From assembly GCF_963576615.1 (NCBI RefSeq), contig NC_088708.1, positions 64,458,672 to 64,522,671 of the forward strand: a stretch of DNA of 64,000 nt. The letters are read 5' to 3'. The translations under genes were made by a program, and so were the position numbers. This document shows positions 3,199 through 26,782 of this stretch, in pieces. Position 1 is the stretch's first letter, and each line of letters begins with the position of its first letter. Origin of the DNA: Watersipora subatra (Eukaryota > Bryozoa > Gymnolaemata > Cheilostomatida > Watersiporidae). Below the pieces are notes generated by a model. It was not told the origin of the DNA and made no database searches. It worked only from the letters and a program-made list of their open reading frames with translations.

Positions 3199-3277
3199 AC
3201 CAACTAATGGAGATTTTGACAATGCGGGATTTTCAAGCTCCCAGAGTTCACATCATCGGTCTAACAATTCTTTAGAG
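3199..3277 (+). CDS. Copy 1 cytoplasmic exon
   Basis: Acceptor ctctgcag and donor GAG/gtaatt bound a 79-base exon. Its frame (one leading base, then 26 codons) reads GDFDNAGFSSSQSSHHRS and ends in SLE. The paralogous exon at 21668-21746 has exactly the same length and phase and shares the pattern N-x-GF-x-S-x-QS-x-x-H-x-S-x-x-SLE, which is the main support for both. Confidence 0.75.
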
Positions 3278-6200
3278 GTAATTTTTCAAGTTATTCTTTG
3301 TGACAGATAATTAGCTTGACAAGAAACAGCTCACGTGTAACTCGACTAAAAATTATATAATGTGATATAAGGTAAACAAATCTTATAACAAGCAACTGTT
3401 TTTAGACTGCTGGCCGCAAAACTAATGTAATTTAGTTATAGAATTATTAAAAACCTCTCTGAGTGTAACATGTATAGTTGCTGTGTAAACCTTGTCAAGG
3501 CATCTACTCATGTTTTTGCATTTAACTTTGATAATTTAGAAATAATTATAATGAAGATTTGAAAGGGTTTGTTAAATAAGGTTGACTTTATTAGTCTCAA
3601 TACAGTGAATCAGAAGGTGAGAAGTGTAGAGAAGACCATAAAAGTTGCTATTCCACATACAAGCCCTGGTGACACGCTCACAACGTATCTCTACGAAATG
3701 AACACCTTGACCCCCGAGTACCTGTATTGCTCACAAGCATTGCATCCTATTCAACTTTATCAAGAAACCACAGGAAAAAAACAGTTTCAGGAAGTATTGA
3801 AGAAGTGAATGTTAGAAAAAAATTGCTAGCCTCAGATATTTCAAGGCTAATATGTATAAAGATTTATATCTAACAACTTTCATCTTCTGTTTAGAACAGC
3901 CATTTTCTAAGTCTTTGTCCCATTATAGCGGCTTTATGATGTGATTGCCGATGATACAGGCTTATGGGAAAACATCTGAGTAGTGCATAAAAAGTAACTG
4001 ATAGTATAATAGTAGCTGAATCTTTTACCCTTTTGTCTTACTGTGAGAGGTTGCTACTGGGGTCTCACAACCAATATGGGGACCATACTCTATATCACTC
4101 TAAAGACTAAAAAGTTCATGAGCTGGCTAAAAAACTACTGTTCAAGTTTCTAGCTATCAAAGGCTAGCACTGCACTGAAAGTAAGATATTTGTGTCATCT
4201 AAAACCTTTGTTAACCCTACAGTACCCTATCTGACATAGATGTAACATAAGTTTTGTAGAATTGCCTTACCATAAATAAAATTGCAAATCTTTTATTTGT
4301 TCCAGAAAGAGTAATCTTGTTTCTACACAATGATATTAAAGTAAGTCAATTCACATAAAGTCATGTGACCTGGAAGTCATTTTTATTTAGCGCACTTCAA
4401 CTTTGAGCAAATTTGTTAAGCACACCAAACTATCAAGCTGGAAATATTCTAACATTTCAATACACCACGTAATGAAAAGACTTCATTAATAAAAAATCAC
4501 AATTTTTGTTTTCATGTTATAAAATCAAGGTGAAAATTGGTATGAATTGAAGTAAAACATTAAAGATCCTGTTTGGAGTTTATGTCAGTCTGGGTATTGT
4601 GTGGTTAGTTTTGTTCTTTCACTATTTCTTTATTACCTGTTTCCAACATTCAACTTTAAAAAAAGCTAAGTTTTCATTAAGAAATACTGTTTAGTATATA
4701 CCTAATATCTCCTGGTGTATGAGAAGTTCATTGTTGCTTGCTAATTGAATCTTGTCTCCACCTGGCAACCACTAAAAACTCTAATGTCATGATGCATGTT
4801 ATAGTTGACAGGCCCAGTTGACCCTCAGTATGAGCACACAAGTATACCTGGACAGGCGTCTATTCAACCTACATCAAGGTCACATTTACCGCCAGCCCAG
4901 CAAGGGCTCTTGCTAGGCTCCTACCAAAGGCCCCGCCAAGGGCCTCACAACAATCTGCATCACAAATTATGCTCATTGTTGGTTTCTACCCACAACTCTT
5001 GGCAGCAGTGGTGTCAATCACACTAGTGAAGTGAAGGATTACACAATCTGAAAGCCTGAACTTTAAAACACGTTGAAAAAGTTTATAAAATTGTTTTAGC
5101 TAGACTGCAGATCGATACATTAACATGGTACTTAAAAGTTACCAGCCATTCATTGTGCTGTTCATTGTGCCATTTATTGATCATTTGAAAGATGATTATT
5201 TGTGCAAGGACTCAAATATGAAATATCATTGTTGCACTCTGCATATTGTTGTATATTATGTTTATGTGATCGCTAAAGCTTACTCATAACTTAATTTACA
5301 GCAAAAACATAAAACATTTTCAATTCATTGTTTTTCATTACTTATGACCAAATAGTTAGTTCTTCTAATTAATATGTAATGACAAATGTTTCACAAGAGA
5401 ACAGAGCGGTGAAATGTTTTGAAGCAAATTACATGCTATAAGAATTCACAGGATGATGTATTTTGCGTACAATTGCAACCTTAAATACCTTGAGAATCTT
5501 GATGGGTTTTCAGAATCCTCCAGGATTCAGAAGTCATATTTTACACTAAAATAGAGATATTAAAATAAAAAAATTGCATCTGTAAATAAAATAGCAGGTA
5601 GATGAAATGAAACAAAAATTATCAAACACGAATATTTGGTTTAACCATGCTATTTGATTCATACTTTGAGCTCTACTATTAAATATCTTGGTTATCTTAA
5701 CAGCATTCTAGCGAACCGAGGATTAAACAACTGCTGCAAACGCTAAATGCATACGCAAATAACATTATCTTTATTTTTAAAACTCTCCTCAATCCCAACA
5801 AAGTTTTGAAAAATATTTTCCAAGTTTTACAAGATGTTTAGAAATATTGATGATTTAGTCACCTTAAACATGCTACTTCAACAGAACGGTACAAGGAAGT
5901 TCTTTATTAAACTTATATATTTATTATATGAATAATTATGATAGCATGTCTGAAAAGGACAAAAACCAAATACTAGCATCGCTTCACAAACACGCCAACT
6001 AAATATATTATCTGATTCTCCCTATTCAATGTTTGTTTGCTTCCTTTGAATGTGCAAAGCAAAGTGAGTCTCATCAGTTTATGATTCCCTCAAGTTTGTC
6101 GAGGGTATTTTCTCTACTGAAAGAAATAACTCTGTTAGTTTGCTTTGGTTCTTTGATAAAATTGATAGTGGCGTAAGTACTCAGTAGTTGATAGTTAAAT

Positions 6201-8886
6201 ATAAGTGTGGTTGACAACAAAATCCATTTTTACCAAAACACAAATATAGTAAAAAATGATGTCCAATTATTTCATCTTATTTTTTCTATTTTAATAGTTA
6301 TATGTTGTTGGTTTATTAACTCTACAAGCTGTTTTTTAGAACTATTGCATGCAACTCAAAATAGTTTGTTTTACTAAAAGTGCTTCAAGTTACACATTAT
6401 ATTGGAATTACAGATGTTGTTATAGAGAAGAAGTGCATCGTGGTTATCATAATTATTGTCTGTCTGTTTGTTATATTCATTATTGGAAGATTTACCTTCA
6501 TGGGAAAGTATTTATCAGGTTAGTCTAAATGCAAACTACATGTGCACATCTACCGAAGTCAGTCAAAGATGTAATGTTATTGGTCTTGCTTATGCTGTAT
6601 GTATAGACCTCTCTATTAAATCATTCTCTATCAGGTATTACAAGTTGTTCAGTATTTTTGACTAAAGTCTGACTGTATAATTTAAATTGCAAATCTATAG
6701 TAATTTACTCATCTTAATTGTGTTCCAGATACAAGCAGCATAAAAAACCGTTTGGTCTTTTTAAAGAAAATCCAGTACAATTGTGAGAAACTAAACTTAA
6801 AACTGTAATGATATATGTGGGTATACTTGATGACAGCAACTACAAATATATGGCTATAGAGCCATTTATCATTATTGTACAGATTAAACGCATTGCTGGC
6901 AGTGCCAAGTGAGACAAATAAAATGAGTGGAACTCTTTCGAAACAATCTAGCTATCTCGCGTATGTTAGAATAGTCGAACCATTAGTGGGCTAATTCATG
7001 CCATTGCAGCTGTATTTATAAGGCAGTTGTATTAATACCAGCAAATCAGTTTAAGTTTTTATTTGCTTTCGAAGAACTAAATTCCTGATAGCTTAGAGCA
7101 AATAATAAAAATACATTATTACAATATAAAATAAGCTAAAGGATATCAACCCATAATTCAGTATCTGTAGAACAAGAGATACCGATTTACATCACTCTCA
7201 CTGCTAGCTTAAACTTTAATAGTGGCCAGTGCCTTATCCTATCTTACTAAATAGTGCAGCTGCCAGCAGTCCAACAGTTAGAATTTTCAAGCACTTTAAT
7301 AGTGAGTGTAATTGCTTGTGATGGTATGGGTATACTGTGTGAGGCTCATGTCATATTATCAGCTAATTTCTATTAACAATGCATAAAAATATTACCTATC
7401 AGACAGTTGCTGATTTATTGTAGGATTGAATGAAAATTTATAGAATCTACTTATTTCAACTTCATGAGGATGGTGAAAAACATTGTTTTTTTCAAAGTGA
7501 GAACAAAATCTGGGTTGCTTCAACCTGAAGTGTGTTTTGATTGCATTCATTTTTTTACTCGCAGAAAAAAGAGACTTTTCAGACAATCTAGAAACTTGTA
7601 CTACCACCAAATTTGTTTACACTGAGGACGATGATTGGACAAGTACAACCTCTGTTGTCACAACAGCTGAAAGCACTCACCATGACTCCATTGTATCCTC
7701 AACATCTTTTTCCAATGACAGTGCAGCAATTGGTGACCTTCAAGCTTGCCAGACCGCCACAAATCTGACTCGTAGCTGGAGGATGGATCACAATGGATCC
7801 GACATAAGACCGGGATTTGTGCCACATGCTAATGACGGATATGCCTGTGACTTCCATGAAAACTTGAAATGGTTCCGGTTTGCAGGAGAAGCAGGTAAAT
7901 CAATCAAGCTTGAAAATATACTCTATAGTGTTAGTTATTATAATTTATCATTATAAAGCCATTTCGTTAGTTTCCTTCATGTAGTTTCCCTTTTACAGCC
8001 TGTTGCCTGATTAGCTCTTCTCTATTCATATATGTAACTTTGAATAGACAGAAGTTTTTTAATTTCCATAACAAATAAGGTTTTTCCAGTGAAGGCAAAG
8101 TGGTTCATCAGAAGATATGCAAAGGAAAACTGTATATATGCTATTTGGCATAAGTCACATATTTAAATACTTCAGTTTGATATACGTCCTTGATATACGA
8201 TTAAGCATCATCAGCGCAGCTCAGAGCTCACACAAGGGACACAAACCATTACCAATGAGAGTTAACTTCCTGCCATAAAACAACTAAGTTACCTCATAGA
8301 TATATATAAATATATATTATTTGATATCAGTCACATATTTAAATGCTTCAGTGTGATATAAGTAATTGTCAAAAGCCTGCAGACATTGCAGAATTAAGTT
8401 GAGTTGATGCAGTGAAAACTTGTCAATGAATTTTTGTCTTTTAGTATTTTATAATTCAACGTAAAGTAAGTTCCTTTCTGTTACAAGTATAATAACATAT
8501 TTTATTGCGACAAGCAGCAATAAAATGAAGCAGCTATAAAATTTTCTGCTTGACGCAGAGTTGCATCAAGCAGCAAACAACAAATACATTATGAAATGTC
8601 CTTACTTTTTAAAGGCAGTCGTCTCCTAAACACCTGTCCGCCATTGAGAAGTTGCGGAGGATTCTACTTCTTTTGGACTGATTCAAAGATGCCTCAACAG
8701 GTTGGAGCTGTATCTCCTATATTTGTATATTCAAGACGCGCGGAGGAGCCTGAAGGGGACTGCAAAGAGATTGCTATAGATGCAGTTGAAGTAAGATGTT
8801 CATGGGACACTGATCATGATTATATATACAATATTATTGGTAAAAAATATGAACAATGCGTAGCAACACTTTGTGGCATGAGGTGA
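3199..8886 (+). CDS. Type II membrane protein with extracellular D8C-like domain, copy 1 (5' incomplete model)
   Basis: Gene assembled from exons at 3199-3277, 4805-4841 (tentative), 6414-6518, 7565-7894 and 8615-8886, all with AG/GT borders and matching phases. The order is a short hydrophilic N-terminal part, one hydrophobic helix in 6414-6518, a Ser/Thr-rich stalk, then a D8C-like domain. The domain shows WFRFAGEAG, NTCPPLRSCGG and CSWDTDHD, and eight cysteines lie between the QAC motif and the final LCG. D8C (eight conserved cysteines) is known from uromodulin, GP2 and OIT3. A basic pair before the helix and a Cys-rich domain after it suggest type II topology, with the D8C outside the cell. 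The start codon and first exon were not found: exon 3199 opens with one base completing a codon, so at least one exon lies upstream. A paralogue with the same architecture is at 21668-26782. The ligand is unknown. Confidence 0.75.
3612..3799 (+). CDS. Possible extra cytoplasmic exon of copy 1
   Basis: An open stretch with protein-like, Tyr-rich composition (TYLYEMNTLTPEYLYC). It would fit phase 0 to phase 0 if spliced from a CAG to GAA/gtattg, but the acceptor has a poor pyrimidine tract. It could correspond to the phase-0 exon at 22736-22849 in copy 2, with at most weak similarity around TIKVAIP. Borders are approximate. Confidence 0.25.
4805..4841 (+). CDS. Copy 1 short cytoplasmic exon
   Basis: A 37-base exon (12 codons plus one base) reading LTGPVDPQYEHT after acceptor gttatag. 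It uses donor A/gtatac, the same donor hexamer and the same phase as the copy 2 exon 23442-23541. The extra base is needed to keep the transmembrane exon open. The frame stays open past the donor to a TAG at about 5024, so an alternative longer exon is possible. Confidence 0.5.
6414..6518 (+). CDS. Copy 1 transmembrane exon
   Basis: 105 bases (2 + 34 codons + 1) encoding IEKK then a hydrophobic run of about 17 residues (CIVVIIIIVCLFVIFII) and GRFTFMGKYLS. Acceptor ttacag, donor CAG/gttagt. The paralogous exon 24309-24416 is one codon longer and keeps IEKK and FTFMGK. Lysines on the N-terminal side favour N-in topology. Confidence 0.85.
7565..7894 (+). CDS. Copy 1 stalk plus first half of D8C-like domain
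   Basis: 330 bases (2 + 109 codons + 1), acceptor ctcgcag, donor GCAG/gtaaat. The first ~60 residues are rich in Thr, Ser and Asp, as in an O-glycosylated stalk. The last ~50 residues begin the D8C-like domain: QACQTATNLTRSWRMDH, then YACDFHENLKWFRFAGEAG. Paralogous to 25340-25654. Confidence 0.85.
8615..8886 (+). CDS. Copy 1 terminal exon, second half of D8C-like domain
   Basis: 272 bases including a TGA stop, identical in length to the copy 2 terminal exon. It contains NTCPPLRSCGG, then the IFVYSRR and CSWDTDHDYIYNI regions, and ends LCGMR. The stop TGA lies inside AG/gtgagt, a consensus splice donor, so an alternative longer transcript cannot be excluded. The phase-1 acceptor at 8614 matches the upstream donor. 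Confidence 0.85.
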
Positions 8887-9035
8887 GTCAGAGGGCTAAA
8901 CAATCTCCAGAATCAAATTGTATAGTACATGTGATAGCCTCATTTTTGCACACAACAAGCTTTCTAGGTCTTCCAGAAACGGTTACTTTACTTTCTTGTA
9001 ACATCCATAACAGTGCAGTAGGTGTAACAGTTTCA

Positions 9036-9041
9036 AATAAA
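9036..9041 (+). terminator. Candidate polyadenylation signal, copy 1
   Basis: AATAAA about 150 bases past the copy 1 stop codon. Further A/T-rich AATAAA-like hexamers follow, for example near 9165, so the site used is unknown. Confidence 0.3.
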
Positions 9042-9334
9042 AACGGTAAAAACAACAAAAGTGAATATGAGATAATATGATCAAGCATATCTTTGTATTA
9101 ACACTGATTAATGGGTTTGTGTTCCTTTTTTATTTATAATGGTTGTACCAAAAAGTATTACAAAATAAATCTATTTCATCAATACACGAGGCTTCAAAAA
9201 TGCAGACACTCTAAGAAAAACTTCACTTAAACATCTGCATGAACAATTGTCGGTTAATCTTTGTTTATGCAATGTAAAAGCTTTAAAACAATGATTGCTA
9301 TTTATTTTTGCATATGCTCAAATGAATGCACACA

Positions 9335-11168
9335 TGTAACAGAAGGTATATGATCTTATGTACTTATAAGTTCAGTGTGAACATGAATACACACATGTAA
9401 CAGAGGGTGTAGGACCTTGTGTACTTATAAGTTCAGTGTGAACATGAATTCACACATGTAACAGAGGGTATAAGACCTGATGTACTTATAAGTTCAATGT
9501 GAACATAAATGCACATATGTAACAGAGGGTATAGGACCACATGTACTTATAAGTTCAGTGTGAACATAAATGCACATATCTAAGAGAGGGTATAGGACCT
9601 TATGTACTTATAAGTTCAGTGTGAACATGAATGCACACATGTAACAGAGAGTATATGACCTTATTTACTTATAAGTTCAGTGTGAACATGAATGCACACA
9701 TGTAACAGAGGGTATAGGACCTTATGTACTTATAAGTTCAGTGCAAACATGAATGCACACATGTAACATAGGGTATAGGACCTTATGTACTTATAAGTTC
9801 AGTGTGAACATGAATGCACACATGTAACAGAGGGTATATGACTTTATGTACTTATGAGTTCAGTGTGAACATAAATGCGCATATGTAACAGAGGGTATAG
9901 GACCTTATGTACTTATAAGTTCAGTGTGAACATGAATGCACACATGTAACAGAGAGTATATGACCTTATTTACTTATAAGTTTAGTGTGAACATGAATGC
10001 ACACATGTAACAGAGGGTATATGACTTTATGTACTTATAAGTTCAGTGTGAACATAAATGCACATATGTAAAAGAGGGTATAGGACCTTATGTACTTATA
10101 AGTTCAGTGTGAACATGAATGCACACATGTAACAGAGGGTATATGACCTTATGTACTTATAATGTAAGTTCAGTGTGAACATGAATGCACACATGTAACA
10201 TAGGGTATAGGACCTTATGTACTTATAAGTTCAGTGTGAACATGAATGCACACATGTAACAGAGGGTATATGACTTTATGTACTTATGAGTTCAGTGTGA
10301 ACATAAATGCGCATATGTAACAGAGGGTATAGGACCTTATGTACTTATAAGTTCAGTGTGAACATGAATGCACACATGTAACAGAGAGTATATGACCTTA
10401 TTTACTTATAAGTTTAGTGTGAACATGAATGCACACATGTAACAGAGGGTATATGACTTTATGTACTTATAAGTTCAGTGTGAACATAAATGCACATATG
10501 TAAAAGAGGGTATAGGACCTTATGTACTTATAAGTTCAGTGTGAACATGAATGCACACATGTAACAGAGGGTATATGACTTTATGTACTTATAATGTAAG
10601 TTCAGTGTGAACATGAATGCACACATGTAACAGAGAGTATATGACCTTATTTACTTATAAGTTCAGTGTGAACATGAATGCACATATGTAACAGAGGGTA
10701 TAGGACCTTATGTACTTATAAGTTCAGTGTGAACATGAATGCACACATGTAACAGAGAGTATATGACCTTATTTACTTATAAGTTCAGTGTGAACATGAA
10801 TGCACATATGTAACAGACGGTATAGGATCTTATGTACTAATAAGTTCAGTTTGAACATGAATACACTCATGTAACAGAGGGTATATGATCTTATGTACTT
10901 ATAAGTTCAATGTGAACATGAATACACTCATGTAACAGACGGTATAGGATCTTATGTACTAATAAGTTTAGTGTGAACATGAATACACTCATGTAACAGA
11001 GGGTATATGATCTTATGTACTAATAAGTTCAGTGTGAACATGAATGCACACATATGTAACAGACGGTATATGATCTTATGTACTTATAAGTTCAGTGTGA
11101 ACATGAATACACTCATGTAACAGAGGGTATATGATCTTATGTACTAATAAGTTCAGTGTGAACATGAA
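9335..11168. repeat. 61-bp minisatellite array, about 30 copies
   Basis: Tandem head-to-tail units of about 61 bp, each carrying TTATAAGTTCAGTGTGAACA, then AATGCACACATGTAACAGAG, then a GGTATA(G/T)GACCTTATGTAC segment. It starts about 300 bp past the copy 1 poly(A) candidate. Units differ by a few bases. A 5-base insertion (TTATAATGTAAGTT) recurs near 10160 and 10590, revealing a higher-order period. No open frame runs through it. Confidence 0.95.
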
Positions 11169-12150
11169 TGAGCAAGTTCAACATTATGTTAGTAGCAAAA
11201 CTAATCTTGGGAAATATTAGCCTATAACAGCAATTGCTGGTAAAGTTATATGTTGATAGCTTTAACAGCATCTTGAATTGTTCTATGTTAGTGTTATGAC
11301 CTAAGGTTAGACATGCCACATAGATTGTGAACACTCATACAGTAGCTAGAGTCATATTAGACTTTCCTATTTTAAGCTAATAGCTTTATAAAATTTATCA
11401 AATCAAAATTCGATAGGATTTCATCATAAATTTCAGCTTTTCTTGGACCTCTGTGTACTGAACCATGTAACGATATTGCAGTTAAGCCAAAGATGAAGGC
11501 TGATTCCATTACAACCAAGTTAATAAAATCGTAAGTTATTTGATAACTTTATTAAAAAAATTAACTAGAAAACTATCGCCTCATTTCATTTCAAACCAAT
11601 GATGCTATATACTCATTAGACTACAAGAAATATGCGACTGCATGTGAACAAAAAAGAGCAATGAAAAAGGTTTGCCATTGTTCATGGACATTAAAATTTC
11701 ACTCACATACGGTCGAAAAAGTCACATCTCTTTAGCTGCAAATCTGGAATTGGTAACATTTAGAAGAAGTATTAAGATCACAAGTTGTTTCATGTTATTT
11801 ACTTATCGGTTTCTATGGATCAACATTTTTCCTGCAACTCAATAATAGTGCATATTTTATATACAGTCTTACTAGCAATACATTTGAAGGTAAGAAAAAA
11901 GCAGTGAAGAGAATGTAAAGCAAACATGGTATGTGGTTGCTGATGTTACTTGTGGCAATATTAAATGTTATTTATGACCTCAATACAGAAAGTGTCAAAA
12001 TAGAAATATAGATATGCCCTGCAACGATCAACATCAAACAATTTACACTGCTTATAAGGAGAGACAATCCGACAATCCGACAATCTGATTCCTGAATAAT
12101 GAATGATAATTTTGACAGAGTTGATTACTTGGAAACTTTACTTTCTTTTG

Positions 12151-12202
12151 AATTGCTAGAGCAAATAGTACGACTATAGTTGTACTATTTGCTCTAGCAA
12201 TT
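12151..12202. repeat. 52-bp near-perfect palindrome
   Basis: The 26-base left arm (from AATTGCTAGAGCAAATAGTA) pairs with the right arm (to GCTCTAGCAATT) with a single mismatch and no loop. It lies about 80 bp before the 42-bp repeat array and next to a second hairpin. Confidence 0.9.
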
Positions 12203-12213
12203 TAGAACTATGC

Positions 12214-12245
12214 AAGAACAAGAATGCGATAGCATTCTTGTTCTT
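12214..12245. repeat. 14-bp-arm hairpin with GATA loop
   Basis: AAGAACAAGAATGC, loop GATA, GCATTCTTGTTCTT: perfect arms. It immediately precedes the first unit of the 42-bp array. Confidence 0.9.
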
Positions 12246-12284
12246 TTTCTTGGAACAGGCACTATGCCTAGTAATTTCGTTTCT

Positions 12285-14247
12285 CCATTTTGATATGACA
12301 GGTAATACAGCATATTCTTTTCTCTCTTCCTTTTGTATGACAGGTAAAACTGATACTTTTCTCTCCTTTTCTGATATGACAGCTAATACAGCTAATACAG
12401 CTAACACAGCAAGTAATTTTCTCTCCTCCTCTGATATGACAGTTAATATATACAGCTAGTACTTTTCTCTCTTTCTTTGATATGACGGGTAATACACCAA
12501 GTACAGTTCTCTCTTCCTTTGATATGACAGGTAAAACTGGTACTTTTCTCTTCATTTTTGATATGACAGGTAATACAGCAAGCTCTTTTCTCTTTTCCTT
12601 TAATATGACAGGTAGTACAGCAAGTACTGTTTTCTCTTCCTTTGATATGACAAGTAATACATCAAGTACTCTTTTCTCCTCCTCTGATATGACAGGTAAT
12701 ACAGCTAGTGCTCTTTTATCCTCCTCTGATATGACAGGTAATACATCAAGTACTGTTCTCTCTTATTTTGATATGACAGTTAATACCGCTAGTACTTTTC
12801 TCTCCTCCTTTAATATGACAGGTAATACAGCAAGTTCTTTTCTCTCTTTCTATGATATGACAAGTAAAACTGGTACTTTTCTCTCCATTTTTGATATGAC
12901 AGCTAATACAGCTAACACAACAAGTATTTTTCTCTCCTCCTCTGATATGACAGTTAATACCGCTAGTACTTTTCTCTCCTCCTTTGATATGATGGGTAAT
13001 ACAGCTAGTACTCTTTTCTCCTCCTTTGATATGGCAAGTAACACAGCAAGTACAGTTCTCTCTTCCTTTGATACGGCAGGTAATACAGCAAGTACTCTTC
13101 TCTCCTCCTTTGATATGACAGGTAATATAGCTATAGTGCTCTTCTCTCCTCCTCTGATATGACTGGTAATATAGCTCGTGCTCTTTTTTCTTTCTTTGAT
13201 ATGACAGGTAATACATCAAGTACCGTTCTCTCTTCCTTTGATATGAAAGGTAATACATCTAGTACTCTTTGCTCTTTCTTTGATATAACAGGTAATACAG
13301 CTAGTACTCTTCTCTCTTCCTTTTGTATGACAGGTAATACAGCTAGTGTTCTTTTTCCTCCTTTGATATGACAGATAATACAGCAAGTACTCTTCTCTCC
13401 TCCTCTGATAAGACAGGTAATACAGCTAGTGCTCTTTTCTTTTCTTTTGATATGACGAGTAATACAGTAAGTACTTTTCTCTCCTTCTTTTATATGACAG
13501 GTAATACAGCTAGTACTCTTCTCTCCTCCTCTGATATGACAGGTAATACAGCTCGTGCTCTTTTTTCTTTCTTTGATATGAAAGGTAATACATCAAGTAC
13601 CGTTCTCTCTTCCTTTGATATGAAAGGTAATACATCTAGTACTCTTTGCTCTTTCTTTGATATAACAGGTAATACAGCTAGTACTCTTCTCTCTTCCTTT
13701 TGTATGACAGGTAATACAGCTAGTGTTCTTTTTCCTCCTTTGATATGACAGATAATACAGCAAGTACTCTTCTCTCCTCCTCTGATAAGACAGGTAATAC
13801 AGCTAGTGCTCTTTTCTTTTCTTTTGATATGACGAGTAATACAGTAAGTACTTTTCTCTCCTTCTTTTATATGACAGGTAATACAGCTAGTACTCTTCTC
13901 TCCTCCTCTGATATGACAGGTAATACAGCTCGTGCTCTTTTTTCTTTCTTTGATATGAAAGGTAATACATCAAGTACCGTTCTCTCTTCCTTTGATATGA
14001 AAGGTAATACATCTAGTACTCTTTTCTCTTTCTTTGATATAACAGGTAATACAGCTAGTATTCTTCTCTCTTCCTTTTGTATGACAGGTAATACAGCTAG
14101 TGCTCTTTTCTTCTCTTTTGATATGACAAGTAATACAGCAAGTACTTTTCTCTCTTTCTTTTGTATGACAGGTAATACAACAAGTAATTTTTTTTCTTCC
14201 TTTTGTATGACAGGTAACACACTAGTTCTCTTTTCTGCTTCAACAGG
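12285..14247. repeat. 42-bp minisatellite array, about 46 copies
   Basis: Units of about 42 bp with the core GATATGACAGGTAATACAGC followed by TAGTACTCTTCTCTCC and a pyrimidine run. Because 42 is a multiple of three, long frames stay open on both strands; on the plus strand the frame encodes a 14-residue repeat of the type MTGNTASTLLSSFD. The frame is broken near 13160, 13370 and 13747 by units with indels. The block beginning at 13368 recurs at 13745 (377 bp, nine units minus one base). I treat it as a satellite rather than a gene because no flanking exon, start context or domain supports translation. Confidence 0.95.
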
Positions 14248-15769: not shown

Positions 15770-15905
15770 CCGACTGCTTGTCAATCTGAAGCCTAGCTAA
15801 AAGCGGTAAGAAAAAGAATGAACTCTCACCGGACTCAAACACAAGGTCTGAGATTCAAAGGCACATGCAGTACCACTACACCACTCAATCACCTTGCTGC
15901 CCCAT
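15770..15905 (-). mobile_element. tRNA-derived SINE (minus strand)
   Basis: Read on the minus strand, TGGTGTAGTGG (15873-15883) resembles an RNA polymerase III A box, and GTTTGAGTCC (15831-15840) resembles a B box, about 33 bases apart as in a tRNA. No cloverleaf or CCA end is evident, so a SINE head is likelier than a functional tRNA. Confidence 0.6.
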
Positions 15906-17564
15906 AAAATAATCATGGCTTTAGTGATTTACACATGACAATCTCACACCTTACAAATGAGAAATATAGCATAACTTTTATATATACTAGTAGGCAGCTA
16001 GTGTTCTAGTATATATTAAAAAATCATGCTTGTCATCTTGCTTAACCAACATCATCAAAAATCTCTGCTGAAATGCTAGCTGTTTGATGTTTATCTATGA
16101 AGGACCCTGCACCAAACTATTTATTTTAAAAGGTATATTCCTTGATATAATTTATTTTATAAATATCAGACATCAATTTGTAACCAGTGTAAGCTAGGGC
16201 TATATTTTTGAAAGTCTGAGCTGACTTGATTAAAAATGTAAGAACAATTTTTGTCAGTGCAGGTAATATAAATTTAAAAAATGTCATTGACTGAAAACCT
16301 GCATTAAACAAAGTTTTTGTATCTGTGTGACAGTCAAAAATTAGCCAATGGAATTGTTTAGCTTACTTTTTACAATAGCATTTGTGTTTTTGCTTTCTGT
16401 ATGACTCTAAAAGAGTGCTTAAACTTCATACAAAAAGCTATTAATTAGCCTGAAAACTTTAGCTCGGTTAAATATGGATGAATTTTTTCCATTATCAAAT
16501 ATATTATTTAATAATGAATAATATTCAGTTAAATATGGATAAAATTTATTCAGCCAACTGTGGTGCATTAATCATGAGATAAATTTATAGCCACTGAGCA
16601 ATATCTCATCTGTAAAAAAATTGTTGTAGTCGGTTTAACAGAGTTCTGAAAAAAAAATCAAATCATCGACTCAAAAAAAACTAAAAATTGAACAGCTATA
16701 GCAGTTATATTTATGATAGCAGCAGGCTAAAAAATGTTATGTTGTAAACAACTTAATACTTTATATGAAATGTTTTTCTGTCAACATAAAACAGGATAAT
16801 CCTTGGTGATAAGCTTCCTACCGTAGGGTAATTAAAACAGAAAGCCTAGAGTTATTCACATTTATCATTATAAAACATTCCTCGCCAATCTTGTTTTGGC
16901 ATGAACCAATGAGCCACATTCTACTTAACTGGGACAAGATTCGTAGATGGCTCTAAATGAGGAAGCAGGGAACCTTAACTGGGCCACTGGGTAAACACGT
17001 GCACAGCTCACTCACCACTCAGCCTGTTTCTAGAATGTAACAATATAGAACAGACAGATGTAGCTCCATCCTTCTATAATGATTAAAATAACCATCCTAC
17101 ACTGTAGCTGCTCTCAATGTAAAAATCAATTACCAGTCTAAGCATTTAAAGTAACACTAGGTCTTTCATAGATTAGCTGGATCAGAACAACTATAGTCAC
17201 AGGTCATGCATGCTTGATGGTAACTTTTTTATAATTGATAAATTACAAAAAAATCTCTAGTCAGTGTTATTGTTTTTATATGATATTTCAGCTATTGACA
17301 GAAAGCAAAGATAAAAGTCAATAAATCAAAAGATAAAGGCAGATACAGAAAAGGTACTGGCTGTGTTACGATGGAAGACAGGTGAGACAGAGTGCTGTTC
17401 AAAATAATATGCTTATGTTTGCATACTAATCTTTGTTGATTAATATTACTTAGTGTTATAAGACTGTTAGAAGATGAAGTTTGGTGATAAGATAATTAGA
17501 AAATCTTGTAAGCTGTGACACGCTGAACCTCCTTTTCTACAGTATAAATGTGAAAGCAAGGAAG

Positions 17565-17650
17565 CAGCTGTAATGTAGTGATCTAGAACACCTGACCAGC
17601 AAACAAGAAGACGGGGTTCTGGTTTTTGAAAAGGCTATCAATGCTAGTAC
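17565..17650 (+). mobile_element. Degenerate SINE head
   Basis: TAATGTAGTGATCTAGAACA followed by CTGACCAGC and ACGGGGTTC. It follows the same layout as the clearer SINE at 37738 (TTAGTAGTCTGAAA ... TCGGGGTTC), but the B box is eroded. Confidence 0.4.
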
Positions 17651-20600
17651 TAACATCATTTAATCTTTATTTGCTGAGATTGTTGGCAGATACAGGTCTG
17701 GTACATTTTAGGCACCTGAACTGATTTTTAACTTGGCCTAGTTCATGCCCTGTGACTTTTGCTCAGATGTATTGGCAGTGCCTTTCATTTGATGCAGATA
17801 AATCACCAGTGAAAGAAGAACTCAGCCTAGCCATGCTTTCATGTTTTGGCAGAGTTGTAAATCTTTGGCAATATCCTTTACATGCAGTTCCTCATACCTA
17901 AATATAATGAAATTGTGTATGCCTACTGTAGGCTCTCTAGCATGATCTGGGCAGCAGACTGAAGGCTATATAGTAAGTTATATAAAGTGGTTTGGCAAGT
18001 AGTTTGAAGGTTATGTAGCAACAGCTTACAATTTGTATAACTAGTTGGCAAGGCAACAACATGTTTTTGAATGGAGAATATAAAAATTAAAATTTTTAAT
18101 CTTTTACAATGCTATTAGATTACCAACTTTTAAAACACATTGGTTCAACATTGGTTCAATAATTCCTGATTTTTGTTTATTATTTTTCTTTTTTTGGCAT
18201 GTAATTAAGAACATCCTTTTGCTGTTGATTACCAATGTTGATTAAAAGTTTTACATACATAAGAACTTGAAGTAAAACTGACGAACAAGTTTGAGGCGGT
18301 TTTGAAAACTAGTGAAGCCATCTAAAGAGAGCTTCCAGCACTAATAAAATTGATGGAGGTCTATGAATTAAAAATAAATCTTTTCAATAAAAGTCTAAAA
18401 GAGTATATTAACACAATTGCTGCATTCCATCAATTTCCCCATCATTTCTGTCCCTTCCATCATTAATGCCGCAAAATCTAGTTTGTGTTCAGCGGTTTTG
18501 AGTGCCAAGCATATGAATTACTCCTTAGGAGGGTGTAAAGAAATACACACATAATGAACCAAAGAATAGGCGGTGAATCGATAGACAATTGTTCATTATA
18601 GTTAAATTCTTTCAACAAACCCTTCAAAAACATTACTCTCTGCACCATGTAGGTCAACCAAAATTTTTAATGGCTTTCCTGTAGTTATGCATAATTTAAA
18701 ATTATTTTCATAAATTGATTTTTACTATCACTTACAAAAAAGTAGTTTTTTTAGAGCTGTTCTTCACTAATTTATAAAGATACAAAGTCATAAATTTAGT
18801 AAATGCCAAAAAAACTCATAAAAAATCAAAGTTCCAATAAATATAACTAATTAACATTAACCAATTAACATAATCAATATGCCTAATGCTATGGAAAGAT
18901 AATGAACAGAACACAAAAGACATAAAATTAACATATGCAATCAAACCTCTACTTACCTGTATTAGAATTTCTAACATACAATGAGAACTACTTTAAGCAA
19001 CATAATTTAATATAGTGATAAAATTTGGGGTGCTAGAACCACTTTATTCTTTTTGTAAACTACCTTGTATTAAGTTGTTCATTTGCCTAATTTCCTTTTG
19101 TTGTGTTTCAGGTACTTTTGGCATGTTACATCATGTTTTTATACCAGTTGTTTGAATTCAAAACTTATTGATTTTTTGTTTTTACTTCTTCACATGTAAT
19201 TTAGCAGACGGTTTGTTTGAACTGAAGTACTTAACAAAGAGATGTATAGCTTAATATCATGCACTTAAATAATTAAATTTGAGTGCTTTTACTTTAATAA
19301 TGCCGCCAAAAGCTAAAGAATGAAATAATTATTACTTAAAAAAATTTCAAAAACTGACTGACAGCTGTATAAAAAAGTATCCGCTTGTTTTATTAGTACA
19401 TTGACTAACTGTTTTCACAATAGTACAAATAAAGAAAAGAAAAATATAATTTTATTTGAGCAACATTCATTAGAAAAACTAATATTTCATTTGTAATTTG
19501 TCTGAGTATTTAAAAAAAATCAACTTTCCAAAATTTGCTGATAGGAGACCGTCTTAAAATAGTTTAAAAAGATTTTATATACATATTTTTTAATATGTCA
19601 ACGAAATAGTATGTTTTATATACAATAAACTAGGCATTTTTAAAGTTGCTAAGATAGTCTTGTTAGTGACTCCTCTTCTCTTTTAAAAGTTAATGTTGTC
19701 TTAAAACCTCTGTCATTGGTGGCTTCATTAGGTTTAATTTTAATTTGTAGCAATGGTGCTACTACACAATCATGATTACATAATTAGACAATTCCTTAAC
19801 TAAACCATTCTCATTAAGCTAAACCAGGTCTTGATAAAATAATCAAACATAATGCTTCTGGTGTTATCTATGCAAAACCAAACTTTTGATCAGATTTGTA
19901 GAGTACTGCTTGCTTATAAAAAATACCTGATAGTCTTATTTCTAAACTTAAAGGCAAATGTTATCTTGAGTGCGGCTGATATAAGTCAACTAAGCACTCA
20001 TATTTTATTAGTGAGAAATTAACTTTCTACAAACATATTTTTACAGAAAAAACTGGTCATTTGTCATGTTCTGATGGCAACAGTTCAGTTTCTGCTTAGT
20101 TCAGTAAAATCTGTCTGGTATATCTTTTTGATAGCACAGGCAAAATAACGGGCGCTTATAAACATATACAGTTATAGGAATATATCTGTATATATGGCTA
20201 AATATATAAATTTTTGGAATTTTTAACAAAATATTTTCAAAATTGTTTTAGAATCTGTTTTTTTATATCTAGAGTAAAAACAATATGTGAACCTTTAAAA
20301 GCCCTCTTACCTAGCTTGATTATCAGACTCGTATGCAAAATGATACAATCATATACACATACATACTTATAGCCAAAAAGTAAAAAGCTAAGCTTCGATG
20401 AAATTATATGTAACTAAAAGCTCAAGAAGTCATTGACAAGAAAAAACGAAGAAACCGTATGTTTTTTGGTAAAATCTTGACTGTTTTTCGTTCAATAAAT
20501 TTTGTGAAATATTACCTAGTGTCACACTATTTGTGGTTTACAGCAATCCGTTATGTTATGTTTGTTACTCCTCAGCCCATGCCTCCATTGTTACAGACCC

Positions 20601-21667
20601 TTATTTTGTATTTTTCTAAGAGAGTTGAAAGATTTGCGGGTCTAGACAATAACATTGTAATATGTGATAATCTAAAGTTAGCTGTCAGATTAGCATGCTA
20701 AGCAGTTGCAGGAGATCTGATAAATTAGTCAACGGAAAAACACATTTCTAGTCAGAAGAGGTTAGAATGTGAGATTTAATATATTTGCTAGTACACTCAA
20801 CAATTTATTGTTCTTTGTAATATTTTTAAAGACGGTCATCATTAAAATGGCTCAAATAGTGTTGAAAAGTAAAACAGGTTTTATTACTTTATAATTGATC
20901 CTAAACCCAATAATGCATTTTTATACAATAAATATTCATCAGGCTCTACTTTCTTACATTTGTGTTCATCCCTTTCTATATTTTGCCTGCAGCAGAGGTA
21001 AAATATAGACTTGTCACTATGGCCATTTTTATATTAAAAATGAGTTTGACTCTATTACCACTTCTAAAACAAGACATAGCTTGACATTTACACTCTTGCT
21101 ATAAGAGAAAAAAATTTGATGTTTTTACCTCAAATCTATGGTTTGAAAAGTCAATAGTCTTACATCACAGCCACTTCTCATCATATATAAGTCATCATCA
21201 TATCAAAATAATAATCTTCTATTATATGTGTCAAGCCTAACTCTCTTTCCAAAGCCATATATGTCATTGTAGTATATGACAAAGTCATATATATATACAT
21301 TACAGCACAGATGTTTAGTATTATTAATTAAAGCTACATTTTGCAGTTTTAAATTTCATGTAAGATTGAATCTTTCATTACTCATGCAGACACCAAAAGG
21401 GACAGTTTTGCAGGATCTCATATCAACTTGTGTGTGACATCATCATCTTGGAATACTGCTCGACAATAACCCAATATTACAATTAACGTGCATGCATGAC
21501 ATTTCTCCCTGTTGTAGATGTTGCATTGGTTAGATTATCAGATACTTGTTGAGTAGATCTATGTAGATCGACTGATAGAAATCTGTAGACAGTAGATCTG
21601 TGTAGCAAGGCTAAACAACTTTTTAAAACTGATTTAAATTTCTAATATTATTTTGTTGTTTCTGCAG

Positions 21668-21746
21668 ACAGGCAAACAACAGTTTTCCCAATGAGGGATT
21701 CGCAAGTTGCCAGAGCCAGCTTCATTGGTCCCACAGTTCTCTAGAG
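21668..21746 (+). CDS. Copy 2 cytoplasmic exon
   Basis: 79 bases, acceptor tctgcag, donor GAG/gtaaat. It reads NSFPNEGFASCQSQLHWS and ends in SLE. Same length, phase and motif spacing as 3199-3277. Confidence 0.75.
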
Positions 21747-24700
21747 GTAAATATGTTACAACCATCAAAAGCTTAAGAATTCTGAGGTCATGCTAATACG
21801 TAGTTATAAGACAGACTTAAAAAACAGCATAAGCTATCATCGCATAGGCTTACTTAGTAAAGCTCATAAATCTACTTTGTCAGAATCAATAAAATGCATT
21901 TGCTACTCTGGCTCGCCAGTGCCTTCTATTATCAGTATATAGTACAAGTACTGTAGGCCAATGGTTTGGCTGCCTTCATCACTGTGTCGTTTTTAGCAGT
22001 AGTATTATGTATCTTATAGTGAGGTGAATGTGTTATGTGATCTTATAGTGAACTTTTTTTTACTTGTCTGTTGATTTAAGATAATTTCTGAGATATTTGT
22101 TAGGAGTTATTCTTTAAAGCATTGTTAATTTAAAATTGCATAATGTTGGGTGTAAAATGCTAAAATAAGGATGCAGTGGTGTGGAAATTTCTCGCTCAAC
22201 GAAAGAATAACACATTGCTACAATTATTTGGTTCAGAAAATGCTAACAGTTTTTCTTACAGTACGTGTCAAGAGGGTTTTGCTCCTAAGAAGCATTTGAA
22301 ATGCAAACATCCATTGAACCAACTTGAATCATTTTCTGTTTGCCAGTCTATTTAGTTACCATGAAAGTTAAATGAAGCACATTTAACAGAAAGTCAAAAG
22401 GGTGGCAAATTTAACACCTTGTGTTCTGTACTCTGACATACGTGGATCTTTGCAAACCATTATAGATTTCCAGCTATTTAGTAAAATCTTATGGTTATGT
22501 TAAAATCAGATGATCACAAAGTTGTGAATTTGAGATGAAACTAAGGGCAACGTTGTAGTAAATTTAGGCACAATGAAACTCAGTAAAAATAATGATATTA
22601 ATGAAAGTAGTCATATTGTGAACATTTGTCTGCAACAAATGATGTTTCCAAATTAATGATTGTAGATAAAATACTTTTATGCTATAAGCTCGCGATTGTT
22701 GAAAAGTTCAATACATTTTCCCCGAATTTTTATAGGCTCAAACAAAAACTTCAATTGCTTCCTCCACTAACACTGAGTTGACAACTCTAATCATACCTGC
22801 TAAGACTTTAGAACTCAATATTGTTATACCTAAAGCTTCTCTAACTTCTGTATGTAATAATACACATATTCCTTTTGTAGCTGTGATAGTAGTGGTCAGC
22901 ACTCAACAATAGTTAGTTGACTATTGTATAGAGTTGAGGTGTGCCATAAAGCTTGCATCTCAAATATCATTACTACTTAGCAATACGTGAAATAATAATG
23001 TAAGCCATGCTATTTGTTTTTCTTTATTTATATATTTGAACTTAATATATTCTATATTGTGCAACCTGCTTTCAAAAACATATTTAATGTAATACCTTAT
23101 TAATATAAAATATGTATTTATTTTTTGCACATATATTAGTCGATTCAGGTTATTCATGCTTGTTTCTGGATTTGAATATGCTAATTTCATACTGCAATAA
23201 TATTTTAAACTGCATAATAAGTTAGCTTACTCTTTTAAGGTAGATTGAATTTAGTCCCATGCGTGTAGCAGCTCTGTTTATACCCTCTTGCAACAAATAT
23301 GGAACGCACACCTGTTATAGTTGTTAGTAAAATCAAAATATAAAAACTAGCAACACTTTCATAGAGACTGATTGCTAATCAATTCAACATCCTCAATGTA
23401 AGTTATATGCATTGTAGAATTTCTCATCGGCTTTTGCCCAGCAAAGCTGTAATGACTATTTGAAACCCAAGAATACACCAAACTCAGACCCAAGCTATTC
23501 AAAAGCTTCAGGAAGTGCTCAACAGAAACCTTATTCACAAAGTATACAACTTACTTCATTGATAATTCACATTTATAGACCTTTTGACACAAATATTGAA
23601 ATGAGGAATATTGGCTATGTAATAAGTTTAAATCAATATGGCATTATATTTATTTAGTAGCAGTTTGACATTACTGACTTTTAAACTACCCAAAAATATA
23701 CTGCCCAGCAAGACAAAATGGTGGTTAAATGAACAGTTCGTAAAAAAATGAATGTTGGTTCTCACTAATGTTCATAAATGACATGGATATGTCATTGGCT
23801 GATAACTCACTAAAACTGGTGTGTACACCTTTTACTTTTTATTTTTGGTTAGCATTGTGAATAGATATACATCTCACAAATTTGTTTTTCAATGCCTAGT
23901 ACTGAACCGTTAACCAAATAACTTAAAGCAGTTTTGGTATATCTATTTCATCAGAACTGAAGTCTAAAAAAATTGACTTACAACAAATAACTTGCTTAGT
24001 TAACTTGTATCAAATATCTTGTAGTAAGTTGACATAGCTGTTGGCTCTTTTGATTTGTAGTGAGCAAATCATCCAAGTATTGCCTTACTAAAAGGCATAT
24101 TCACAGAGTTTGTGTTCAGAAAACAGTATTCAATGACAGGTTTCTTCTCCAGAAAAATATATCACAATCATTAAAAGTGCTGATTTGTTTCTAGGACCTT
24201 AATTTCTAAAAATAATTGAATCCGTAATTAAATTGGGGAAAATATTTTGACCAGTCTCTGTCATTCCGATAAAATTGTCTCAAGTTATAAACCATGTTGG
24301 TTTTGTAGATATTGTAATAGAAAAGAAGAAATGCATAGCAGTTACTATCATCCTTGTCTGTGTGTTTACCACAATCATTGTGGGCGGTTTTACCTTCATG
24401 GGAAAACATTTATCAGGTTGGTCAAGATATAAACACATATTTATCATATTCAATCGGAAACACCATTGTATAAATCTTGATAACGTCGTTTGTTCGAATA
24501 TCTTTATTTAGCAATTTTGTTTCTCAAGTATAAAACATATATTTGACATTGCTTGACTGAATGCATTTTTTACACAAGAAAGCAGTACAAATGCTTTGTT
24601 TTGGATAAAAAGTGATACTAATAAAGTTACGCCTTAAAGATTGCAATGAACTTAGCTTGACCTCGGTAGATCTACTGTAAGTGTTACTCTCAAGGGCACC

Positions 24701-26782
24701 ACTTTGTGCACTGTGCTACATTTATACATTGATGAGACAATAAAAATACTGCGAATTCTCAAAAAATGGATGATTTCAAAAACTACTGTTTTTAAAATCA
24801 TCAATTGATTCCCGGTGATTTTAAAAACTACTGCTTTTAAAATCACCGGAAAGAGAAAATGTTCTAATGACAAAGATATAAAAGAAAAAAAGTCGCAGAA
24901 AACGCTCGTCAAAAATCAACAAGATAAAATATGCTCTGTGTATTAGGACAATCAAACTATCACCAATATTTTAGAGTTAGCTGTCAAATAAGAAAGCACT
25001 CCAGCAGTCAGAGTAAGCAAAATACCGTAGCAAAAATACCGAGTGAAAGTTATCTCTACAGAAGAAAAGTCTCAGAAAAAACTGCCGTTGATGGCTGTGA
25101 AAAAATAAAAGGATTAGAATGGGTAAAAACTCACAAGAATTGAGCTGCTGAAGAGTTCTCTGCAGCTTATCAGATGCATGCTAAATAATATTTTATGTTT
25201 TACTAACCAAGTGTGCTTGTTACTTCTTTTCTTGTAAAGGTAGCCTATGAAGGGTGACACACAAAAATATTCAAAACATGTGTACCTATGTTTCTTATTA
25301 AACTTAAAATATGTAGTGACTCTCAAATTTTGGTTGCAGAAAATGCTGGCACTGATAGCAATATTGATGCAATTCTTAAACCTTCCACCACCACATCAGA
25401 TTTTGGTGAAGACGCTAGCTGGCCAACTACTACAGAAACTCTCTCAGCAATGAGCGTTTCTGGTGAACCTGACACTACTCCATTCACAGCTACCAGTCCT
25501 GTAGAGTGCTGCACTGCTCAAAATCTATCTGAATACTGGAGGATGGAGCACCATGGAGGTGATATAAGGCCACGACTTGATCCAGAGTCTGAGATTGGAT
25601 ACGCGTGTGATTTCCATGAGAGCTTAGAATGGTTTCGCTTTGTAGGAGCAGCAGGTATGTCATTTAGACATTTGAAACTTAGTAAAGACTGAATATCTTG
25701 GAATATACAAAGAATAGTCCACATATAATATTTTTAGAATACAGCATAATCAAAACATAATATTAATCAACATAAATCTAATTGAGTTACAGAATTCATG
25801 CAAATGTAAAAGCTTATCATTATTCTATAATAGCTGACGTTTCCTAACCTTGTTTTGGTTTCACATGATTTCATGAAGCACTGTACTGATAGAAGATAGG
25901 AGCTGCTGCTTCATTTAACACTCCATATAATAAAGAGTTTTTAGTGTGCTCAAGTCACTTATTGCATAAAATAAAATTGATTGTTTTTTGTTATTATTGC
26001 TGCAAACCAGTAGATGGTCAAGCAAGATGATGAGTACACATGAGATGTTTTTTAACAATTTTACATAGAAAAGGCTGAAGTAGGCAATTAAATTTATCTT
26101 TCAAAACACTTTTTGCAGTTAGATGTGAAAATGTGTTGTGCCTTTATTTATTTTTGATTTTATGAAAACCAAGTTAACATATTACATAGGTGCCCTTTTC
26201 TTCGTCGCACAAAGCTTCTGGCCATTCTCTAGAATTTACACACCCTCTATGTAACCGGACTACATAGTTAATTACAGTTGCACTGTCTTAATAGCTACAA
26301 GTCATCTGCCATTTCCATATTATGTGTGTTCATAAGCTGGCTTAGGAGCTTTTATTAAACACTGTCTAACCACCATTTTTATTGCTTCTTCACCATTTGA
26401 AAATTGAAAAATATATCATAGGCTGAAAATGGTCTTTCTTCCAGTTGCAGTTGGCTGTAAAAAACATTATAAAATTTATTGACAACAATAAATGCAACTC
26501 ATACTTGCAGGAAACCGTTTTTTAAACACATGCCCACCCTTCAGAAGTTGTGGAGGGCAATTCTCTTTCTGGACAGATTCGGAAATGCTTCAAAAGATTG
26601 GAGTCGTCTCTCGTATATTTGTATATTCGAGATATTCTGAGGAAACTAACTGGAGCTGCAGAGGGGCTATCGAGGATGCATATGTAATAAGATGCTCATG
26701 GGACACTGATTATGATTTTGTGTACAGAGTTGATGGCCCAAACGAGAACGAATGTTTTGCCGCATTCTGTGGCATGAGCTAA
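21668..26782 (+). CDS. Type II membrane protein with extracellular D8C-like domain, copy 2 (5' incomplete model)
   Basis: Paralogue of the gene at 3199-8886 in tandem orientation. Exons 21668-21746, 22736-22849, 23442-23541, 24309-24416, 25340-25654 and 26511-26782 keep phase from end to end. The parts are a cytoplasmic region with several tyrosines (NDYLKP, DPSYSK, KPYSQ), one helix, a Thr/Ser-rich stalk, and a D8C-like domain with YACDFHESLEWFRFVGAAG, NTCPPFRSCGG and CSWDTDYDFVYRV, ending FCGMS. Eight cysteines match copy 1, with one extra in ECC. D8C-bearing proteins such as uromodulin, GP2 and OIT3 are extracellular; function here is unknown. The first exon is not identified. Compared with copy 1, the extracellular half is conserved and the cytoplasmic half diverges strongly. 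Confidence 0.8.
22736..22849 (+). CDS. Copy 2 phase-0 cytoplasmic exon
   Basis: Exactly 38 codons between acceptor tttttatag and donor TCT/gtatgt, rich in Thr, Ser and Leu (TKTSIASSTNTELTTLIIP). It fits phase 0 on both sides. There is no clear counterpart in copy 1. Confidence 0.5.
23442..23541 (+). CDS. Copy 2 Tyr-containing cytoplasmic exon
   Basis: 100 bases (33 codons plus one) starting QSCNDYLKPKNTPNSDPSYS after acceptor ttttgcccag, with donor A/gtatac. The donor and phase match copy 1 exon 4805-4841. It supplies the base needed by the transmembrane exon. Confidence 0.65.
24309..24416 (+). CDS. Copy 2 transmembrane exon
   Basis: 108 bases (2 + 35 codons + 1): IEKKK, then CIAVTIILVCVFTTIIVGG, then FTFMGKHLS. 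Acceptor tttgtag, donor CAG/gttggt. Paralogous to 6414-6518. Confidence 0.85.
24768..24849. repeat. Two adjacent related imperfect palindromes
   Basis: TGATTTCAAAAACTACTG with TTTTTAAAATCATC, then GGTGATTTTAAAAACTACTG with CTTTTAAAATCACC. Each folds on itself, and the two are diverged copies of each other. They lie in the intron between the transmembrane and stalk exons of copy 2. Confidence 0.7.
25340..25654 (+). CDS. Copy 2 stalk plus first half of D8C-like domain
   Basis: 315 bases (2 + 104 codons + 1), acceptor ggttgcag, donor GCAG/gtatgt. A Thr/Ser-rich stalk is followed by NLSEYWRMEHHGGDIRPRL and CDFHESLEWFRFVGAAG. Confidence 0.88.
26511..26782 (+). CDS. Copy 2 terminal exon, second half of D8C-like domain
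   Basis: 272 bases ending in TAA, acceptor acttgcag. It contains FLNTCPPFRSCGG, SFWTDSEM, CSWDTDYDFVYRVDG and the closing CFAAFCGMS. Confidence 0.88.

Follow-up and report, generated by a model that had tools for sequence, protein, structure and literature searches.

A repeated gene pair in Watersipora subatra predicted to encode type II membrane proteins with a uromodulin-type D8C domain

Gene structure at the locus

Two related genes, here called A and B, lie on the forward strand of a 64,000-nucleotide (nt) stretch of DNA from the bryozoan Watersipora subatra (contig NC_088708.1, hereafter contig C1, 64458672-64522671; 784-Mb genome, about 33% G+C). This whole stretch is referred to as the window, and positions are given relative to its first nucleotide. 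Each gene is predicted to encode a cytoplasmic tail, a hydrophobic helix, a stalk rich in Ser and Thr, and a C-terminal domain of the D8C (D10C) type found in GP2 and in human uromodulin (UMOD), where it traps bacteria. Gene A spans 3199-8886 and gene B spans 21668-26782, and all of the following exons have AG/GT splice borders.

3199..3277, forward strand: gene A, putative cytoplasmic-tail exon of 79 nt (PTNGDFDNAGFSSSQSSHHRSNNSLE), entered with 1 nt and ending in phase 0
6414..6518, forward strand: gene A, putative transmembrane (signal-anchor) exon, phase 1 in and out, Kyte-Doolittle mean 3.31 over 19 residues
7565..7894, forward strand: gene A, stalk exon (stalk of 60 residues, 37% Ser+Thr) with the first part of the D8C domain (cysteines C1 and C2)
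8615..8886, forward strand: gene A, last exon of 272 nt with the remaining D8C domain (six cysteines), stop codon TGA
21668..21746, forward strand: gene B, putative cytoplasmic-tail exon of 79 nt, open in all six B copies described below
24309..24416, forward strand: gene B, putative transmembrane exon, phase 1 in and out
25340..25654, forward strand: gene B, stalk exon (stalk of 55 residues, 36% Ser+Thr) with the first part of the D8C domain
26511..26782, forward strand: gene B, last exon of 272 nt with the remaining D8C domain, stop codon TAA

When A and B were compared by blastn, four exons matched at 7e-30, 3e-22, 8e-17 and 2e-6, and the next match was at 0.035. The 79-nt exons are 75% identical over 68 nt, and in both genes a single frame of this exon is open, the one ending in phase 0. 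The predicted joined proteins share 51% identity. Within each gene the exons are presumably spliced together, as judged from the DNA. A first, sequence-only reading of the window had described the same order of exons in both genes, and the four exon types with their borders were recovered. What did not hold is the direct connection of the 79-nt exon to the transmembrane exon. Splicing the two directly was rejected, as phase 0 meets phase 1 and the frame shift leads to a stop in A and in B. The mismatch and the stops indicate that at least one exon is missing between them.

In the last exon of both genes, the stop codon directly follows the domain. No EGF, ZP or other Pfam domain scored above its cut-off in the joined A or B proteins, as built from the exons found. 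Having D8C as the sole domain, as described earlier, is not special to the pair: six full frames of relatives likewise contained no Pfam domain besides D8C_UMOD. Two hits of the joined proteins, DUF4492 (5.8e-4, 20.2 bits, below its 27-bit cut-off, over the helix) and Betaherpes_U91 (0.51), were set aside as noise from the hydrophobic stretch. Two long tandem arrays occupy part of the DNA between A and B, one at 9322-11170 (30 copies of a 61-bp unit) and one at 12397-14241 (44 copies of a 42-bp unit).

The extracellular domain

A phmmer search with A alone matched uromodulin at 2.7e-5, and a profile built from A and B did so at 5e-5. With a profile of nine relatives from the same genome, the match reached 3e-10 for uromodulin and 2.1e-8 for GP2. 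These matches support the view that the predicted extracellular domain of A and B belongs to the D8C/D10C family, and the original assignment stands. The Pfam family D8C_UMOD (PF23283) matched six of the nine aligned relatives at E-values up to 1 (best 1.9e-7). It scored above its cut-off in one of the six full frames of relatives and at four loci of the genome, one of which has an in-frame stop.

The domain shares with UMOD and GP2 the core motif GY.CD...W[FY]RF.G..G....TC....C. According to an excerpt of PMC8930769, the GP2 domain contains ten cysteines paired as C1-C8, C2-C9, C3-C6, C4-C10 and C5-C7. The domain of A has eight of the ten at matching places, namely C1-C4, C6 and C8-C10; the two that it lacks, C5 and C7, are disulfide partners in GP2. 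The single middle cysteine of A was assigned to C6 on the basis of its alignment with uromodulin C6 and its distance of 12 residues from C8, which is that of GP2. GP2 also has the same spacing between C3 and C4 (6). The eight cysteine columns are invariant in all nine aligned relatives. Another family member, L027 (contig C6, 60422437-60422835), lacks C3 and C6 together, again a pair that is bonded in GP2. The pattern in A is compatible with the GP2 disulfides, and the domains of A and B probably contain four of them. The loss of the C5-C7 pair, and of C3-C6 in L027, amounts to a natural experiment on the fold of the domain and bears on the UMOD mutations that cause kidney disease. Next to C1, an additional cysteine (25510-25512) occurs in the B gene of the window; the other five B copies carry Arg or His at this position.

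The D8C family in the genome

Searching the genome with A yielded 151 matches, and searching it with the domain of the relative L017 yielded 150; of the latter, we examined the 91 that covered the second half or all, or nearly all, of the domain. A count of paralogues had been proposed together with the sequence-only reading; it yielded at least 85 loci on 10 contigs, a lower bound that includes damaged copies, and six A-B pairs. At 29 of the 85 loci the domain is not split by an intron. Over the domain, A is 40-56% identical to the eight sequences aligned with it, one of which is B.

Eleven relatives have a readable open frame. As judged by eye, nine of them (L003, L004, L017, L018, L020, L021, L022, L027 and L029) start with a stretch resembling a signal peptide, and the N-terminal start of L002 and L034 is ambiguous. 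Family members elsewhere in the genome thus look mostly secreted. In many of the eleven, this start precedes a cysteine-containing helical segment and a stalk rich in Thr. L003, L004, L017, L018, L020 and L021 have in common a helical-looking N-terminal segment with conserved cysteines, of the form IYK..V..I..LL...CP ... LYE.L...L..CR. A Pfam scan of L003, L017, L020 and L021 found no family on this segment.

We also calculated a tree from 16 domain sequences of our own choice. All five transmembrane sequences fall on one side of a branch, the other eleven sequences including L002 and L034, with support of 94/92, which is just under the program's mark of 95. This arrangement is consistent with a single change of housing, by which one branch would have received a cytoplasmic tail and a membrane anchor in place of the signal peptide and the helical cysteine segment.

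Six copies of the gene pair

The tandem pair first noticed in the window is real, but its extent had been understated, as the chromosome carries six such A-B pairs. They lie on contig C1 at 62.6-64.5 Mb, within about 1.8 Mb, each with A before B; the approximate spacings between the blocks are 367, 252, 571, 371 and 248 kb. All six B copies are intact from the transmembrane exon to the end, with no internal stop. From the transmembrane exon on, three of the six A copies (at 62.66 Mb, at 64.22 Mb and in the window) are free of internal stops. The copy at 63.02 Mb has a stop and has lost an acceptor, the copy at 63.85 Mb has frameshifts and a stop, and in the copy at 63.28 Mb the stalk exon is split by about 5 kb. 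The insert in the latter contains an open reading frame (ORF) of 673 residues (L037, 7981-10000) that appears retroelement-like by eye.

The 79-nt exon was found in all six B copies and in three A copies (64.47, 62.66 and 63.85 Mb); beside the other three A copies, it was not found in the stretch examined. A homologue of the transmembrane exon is present in all five other A copies, in one of them frameshifted. This exon is in frame with the stalk and the domain in all six B copies and in the three intact A copies.

We then compared nonsynonymous (dN) and synonymous (dS) divergence between copies. For the D8C domain, the six B copies gave dN/dS values of 0.10-0.33 in their 15 pairwise comparisons, and four of the six A copies, one of which carries a stop, gave 0.18-0.53 in six comparisons. 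Judged by these ratios, the domain is under purifying, not diversifying, selection between copies. Segments of the A domain exons diverge by 0.02-0.09 between copies, and introns mostly by 0.05-0.2. The B copy at 63.04 Mb is an outlier, with a dS of 0.115-0.131 to all five other B copies.

The state of the A copies raises the question of whether A of the window is itself a decaying copy and B the one working gene, which we consider doubtful. Such decay would fit the stops or frameshifts in two of the six A copies, the interrupted stalk exon in a third, the 79-nt exon missing from the examined stretch beside three of them, and the search of window A for a linking exon, which found none (see below). 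It is opposed by window A itself, which retains the four exons and their splice borders and has a stop-free frame beginning at the transmembrane exon, and by the divergence values given above for domain exons and introns.

The missing exon and the membrane topology

Two genes of a further subfamily, C (contig C1, 68.2 Mb; L046 and L047), have an 82-nt exon, phase 0 in and phase 1 out, that sits between the tail exon and the transmembrane exon. In both C genes, exon e1, the 82-nt exon and the transmembrane exon form a continuous predicted frame through the helix, which places 53 residues upstream of the helix exon. A possible additional exon lies further upstream (L046, 4561-4652; L047, 3645-3736); it is Tyr-rich, with the peptides YIDM and YTSM, and tentative, as the frames of the two genes disagree. 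In gene B, one candidate corresponds to the 82-nt exon:

23442..23541, forward strand: gene B, tentative candidate for the missing cytoplasmic exon, 100 nt, phase 0 to phase 1, restoring the frame (QSCNDYLKPKNTPNSDPSYSKASGSAQQKPYSQ)

Its similarity score to the 82-nt exon of C was 32, compared with at most 26 for the shuffled sequences (n=10), and it is open and without indels in all six B copies. These observations weakly support it as the linking exon of B, and we retain it tentatively. All linking-exon scores were compared with ten mononucleotide shuffles each, which is a weak control, and three A copies were searched. The copy at 63.85 Mb offered no candidate above 20, versus 29 for the shuffles. 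A candidate in the copy at 62.66 Mb (34 versus 24) was not accepted because it is Ala/Pro-rich and did not rank among the first six candidates in either of the other two. A stretch near 4811-4877, open by eye, was outside the six best linking candidates of every copy and was dropped. A signal peptide formed by read-through of the stalk-exon acceptor was likewise rejected by eye, since the stretch is a polypyrimidine tract and unlike between A and B.

Over 19 residues, mean hydropathy is 2.6-3.6 in the helix exons of A, B and C. The hydrophobic run comprises about 20-24 residues and shows no clear cleavage motif by eye. The positive charges flanking the helix (before/after) number 3/1 in B and 4/2 in C, which favours type II, and an even 3/3 in the A copy at 62.66 Mb.

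As most relatives with readable frames look secreted, the hydrophobic exon could instead be a cleaved signal peptide, and A and B could be secreted too. We regard this as unlikely, even though nine of the eleven readable relatives start in this way, the flanking charges in window A do not favour type II, and the start codon of A and B has not been located. The 53 residues in frame before the helix of the C genes suggest that the helix is a signal anchor rather than a cleaved signal peptide; the length of the hydrophobic run without a clear cleavage motif and the tail exon that is open in all six B copies point the same way. A type II topology of A and B, as originally proposed, is the arrangement that we favour, resting on the in-frame helix exon and the upstream frame in the C genes, with the charges of window A opposed to it. 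Display at the cell surface would follow from this topology.

We lean, with some reserve, towards the view that A and B are paralogues encoding single-pass type II membrane glycoproteins with one extracellular D8C/D10C domain, which likely act in surface recognition or adhesion. The N-terminal cytoplasmic tail would be spread over small exons and be followed by the signal-anchor helix. A Ser/Thr-rich stalk of 55-60 residues would then carry one C-terminal extracellular domain with four disulfides, holding it out from the cell surface as a head that recognises or adheres to ligands on microbes or neighboring cells. The pair would have been copied in blocks that also hold a receptor-type tyrosine phosphatase. 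The ligand and an immune role are guesses, and so is the binding of bacteria suggested in the sequence-only reading.

Several observations weigh against this view. Pfam D8C_UMOD matched neither joined A nor joined B nor the A domain, so that the Pfam search of the joined exons proposed with the sequence-only reading gave no D8C match. An AlphaFold model of exon 4 alone had a mean pLDDT (the program's confidence score) of 34 and was discarded as meaningless. The helix of window A has one flanking charge before and four after it, which disfavours type II, and half of the six A copies are broken. Over the transmembrane exon and the stalk, dN exceeded dS in five of the 15 B pairs, all with a dS of at most 0.032. 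The proportion of variable columns among the B copies was 0.130 in the candidate linking exon and 0.152 in the 79-nt exon, compared with 0.145-0.195 in introns, and neither of these two exons of B shows third-position bias. A linking exon was not found in window A, where the best candidate scored 20 and the shuffles up to 29. Finally, the DNA upstream of A, extended to 10 kb before the window, and that upstream of B were searched by exon similarity and conserved DNA, and no first coding exon scored better than the three shuffles.

Comparison with known proteins and possible function

UMOD and GP2 are held at the membrane by a glycosylphosphatidylinositol anchor, whereas A and B have in its place a predicted N-terminal membrane anchor. 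The profile matches make the domain homologous, but the joined A and B contain no visible EGF or ZP module. The sequon of the UMOD N275 type is absent in A (YNII) and in B (YRVD), and thus a decoy for FimH at N275 as in UMOD is not supported for either protein. Both have a sequon at C1+5, near, not at, the position of GP2 N65 (C1+2), and a sequon just after C1 is present in 14 of 16 sequences. The proximity to N65 leaves room for a possible glycan-decoy role; the FimH decoy is defined by a high-mannose N-glycan in the D10C groove, and our comparison reads the sequons alone.

The secreted-looking relatives L017, L020 and L021 also carry D8C on a Thr-rich stalk. They differ from A and B in their signal-peptide-like start and helical cysteine segment, with no cytoplasmic tail or anchor. 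OIT3 (LZP) and VWDE are multidomain proteins. They are listed with UMOD and GP2 as D10C proteins in an excerpt of PMC8930769, and their likeness to A and B is taken from this listing rather than from a sequence comparison. Titles and opening lines of abstracts on D8C, uromodulin-like and OIT3 proteins described no type II D8C protein. In the portions consulted, PMC4655091 and PMC4133350 merely list a transcript named oncoprotein-induced transcript 3.

The same excerpt of PMC8930769 presents the uromodulin-type domain as a vertebrate module of filament-forming multidomain proteins. Here, this domain stands alone as the head of stalked proteins at no fewer than 85 loci of a single animal genome, and the members of one branch seem to be membrane-bound and to have a cytoplasmic tail. 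Should the domain bind microbes or other cells, these proteins would form a large and testable recognition family.

A role in development, matrix or gamete contact instead of defence, as for VWDE in regeneration and for D8C proteins of the ZP type, is possible but less likely than not. VWDE and LZP/OIT3 are D10C proteins, VWDE being cited in appendage regeneration in the excerpt of PMC8930769, and the purifying rather than diversifying selection on the domain would suit such a role. On the other hand, the high copy number, the tandem blocks, the stalks and the loss of copies may be compared to recognition families. Moreover, an oyster transcript named OIT3 is among those changed after bacterial challenge in a table of PMC4133350, a match by name only.

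Phosphatase exons in the repeated block

Downstream of gene B, the window contains exons of a receptor-type tyrosine phosphatase in the opposite orientation:

40041..57813, reverse strand: receptor-type tyrosine phosphatase exons, with PF00102 on 40041-40403 and Fn3_PTPRU and PTP_tm on 57454-57813; the coordinates delimit two ORFs rather than the gene

These exons probably belong to one gene. A genome search with the fibronectin-type exon (57454-57813) gave 19 matches. Six of them are located 24-31 kb beyond the six B genes in opposite (convergent) orientation, 12 elsewhere on contig C1 at 62.3-64.9 Mb, and the last on contig C3 (6.05 Mb), where a D8C locus lies about 116 kb away. The phosphatase exons thus form a cluster of their own, with 18 of the 19 matches within 2.5 Mb of contig C1. 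Since the exon recurs in six units, the repeated block comprises A, B and at least this phosphatase exon.

Among the phosphatase exons, the one in the window has its nearest counterpart (94%) in the block at 63.07 Mb, and the B gene at 63.04 Mb is the most distant B. This non-parallel divergence suggests that the blocks have exchanged sequence and makes a simple haplotype artefact less likely. That the six blocks are in part a product of assembly, with unmerged haplotypes placed in tandem, is in our view very improbable. The block spacing does roughly repeat, as such an error would predict. However, B copies that lie one repeat apart are not mutually closest by dS, the would-be partner of the 63.04 Mb copy, at 64.24 Mb, is among the five from which that copy is distant, and the closest relative of the window's phosphatase exon lies in the 63.07 Mb block.

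Tyrosines are present in the C exon and in the candidate exon of B; a functional link of such tails to the phosphatase is conjecture. Shared duplication alone suffices to explain the A-B-phosphatase order. We would give little weight to the further idea that the block is a working unit, with type II D8C receptors that have tyrosine-bearing tails paired with the co-copied receptor phosphatases, so that the several copies would form a locus for self/non-self or microbe recognition. No such locus was described in the titles and opening lines of abstracts on D8C and uromodulin-type proteins, and no search was aimed at phosphatases. Between the two phosphatase ORFs, the reverse strand also carries a reverse transcriptase ORF at 49372-50259 (Pfam RVT_1, 2e-13).

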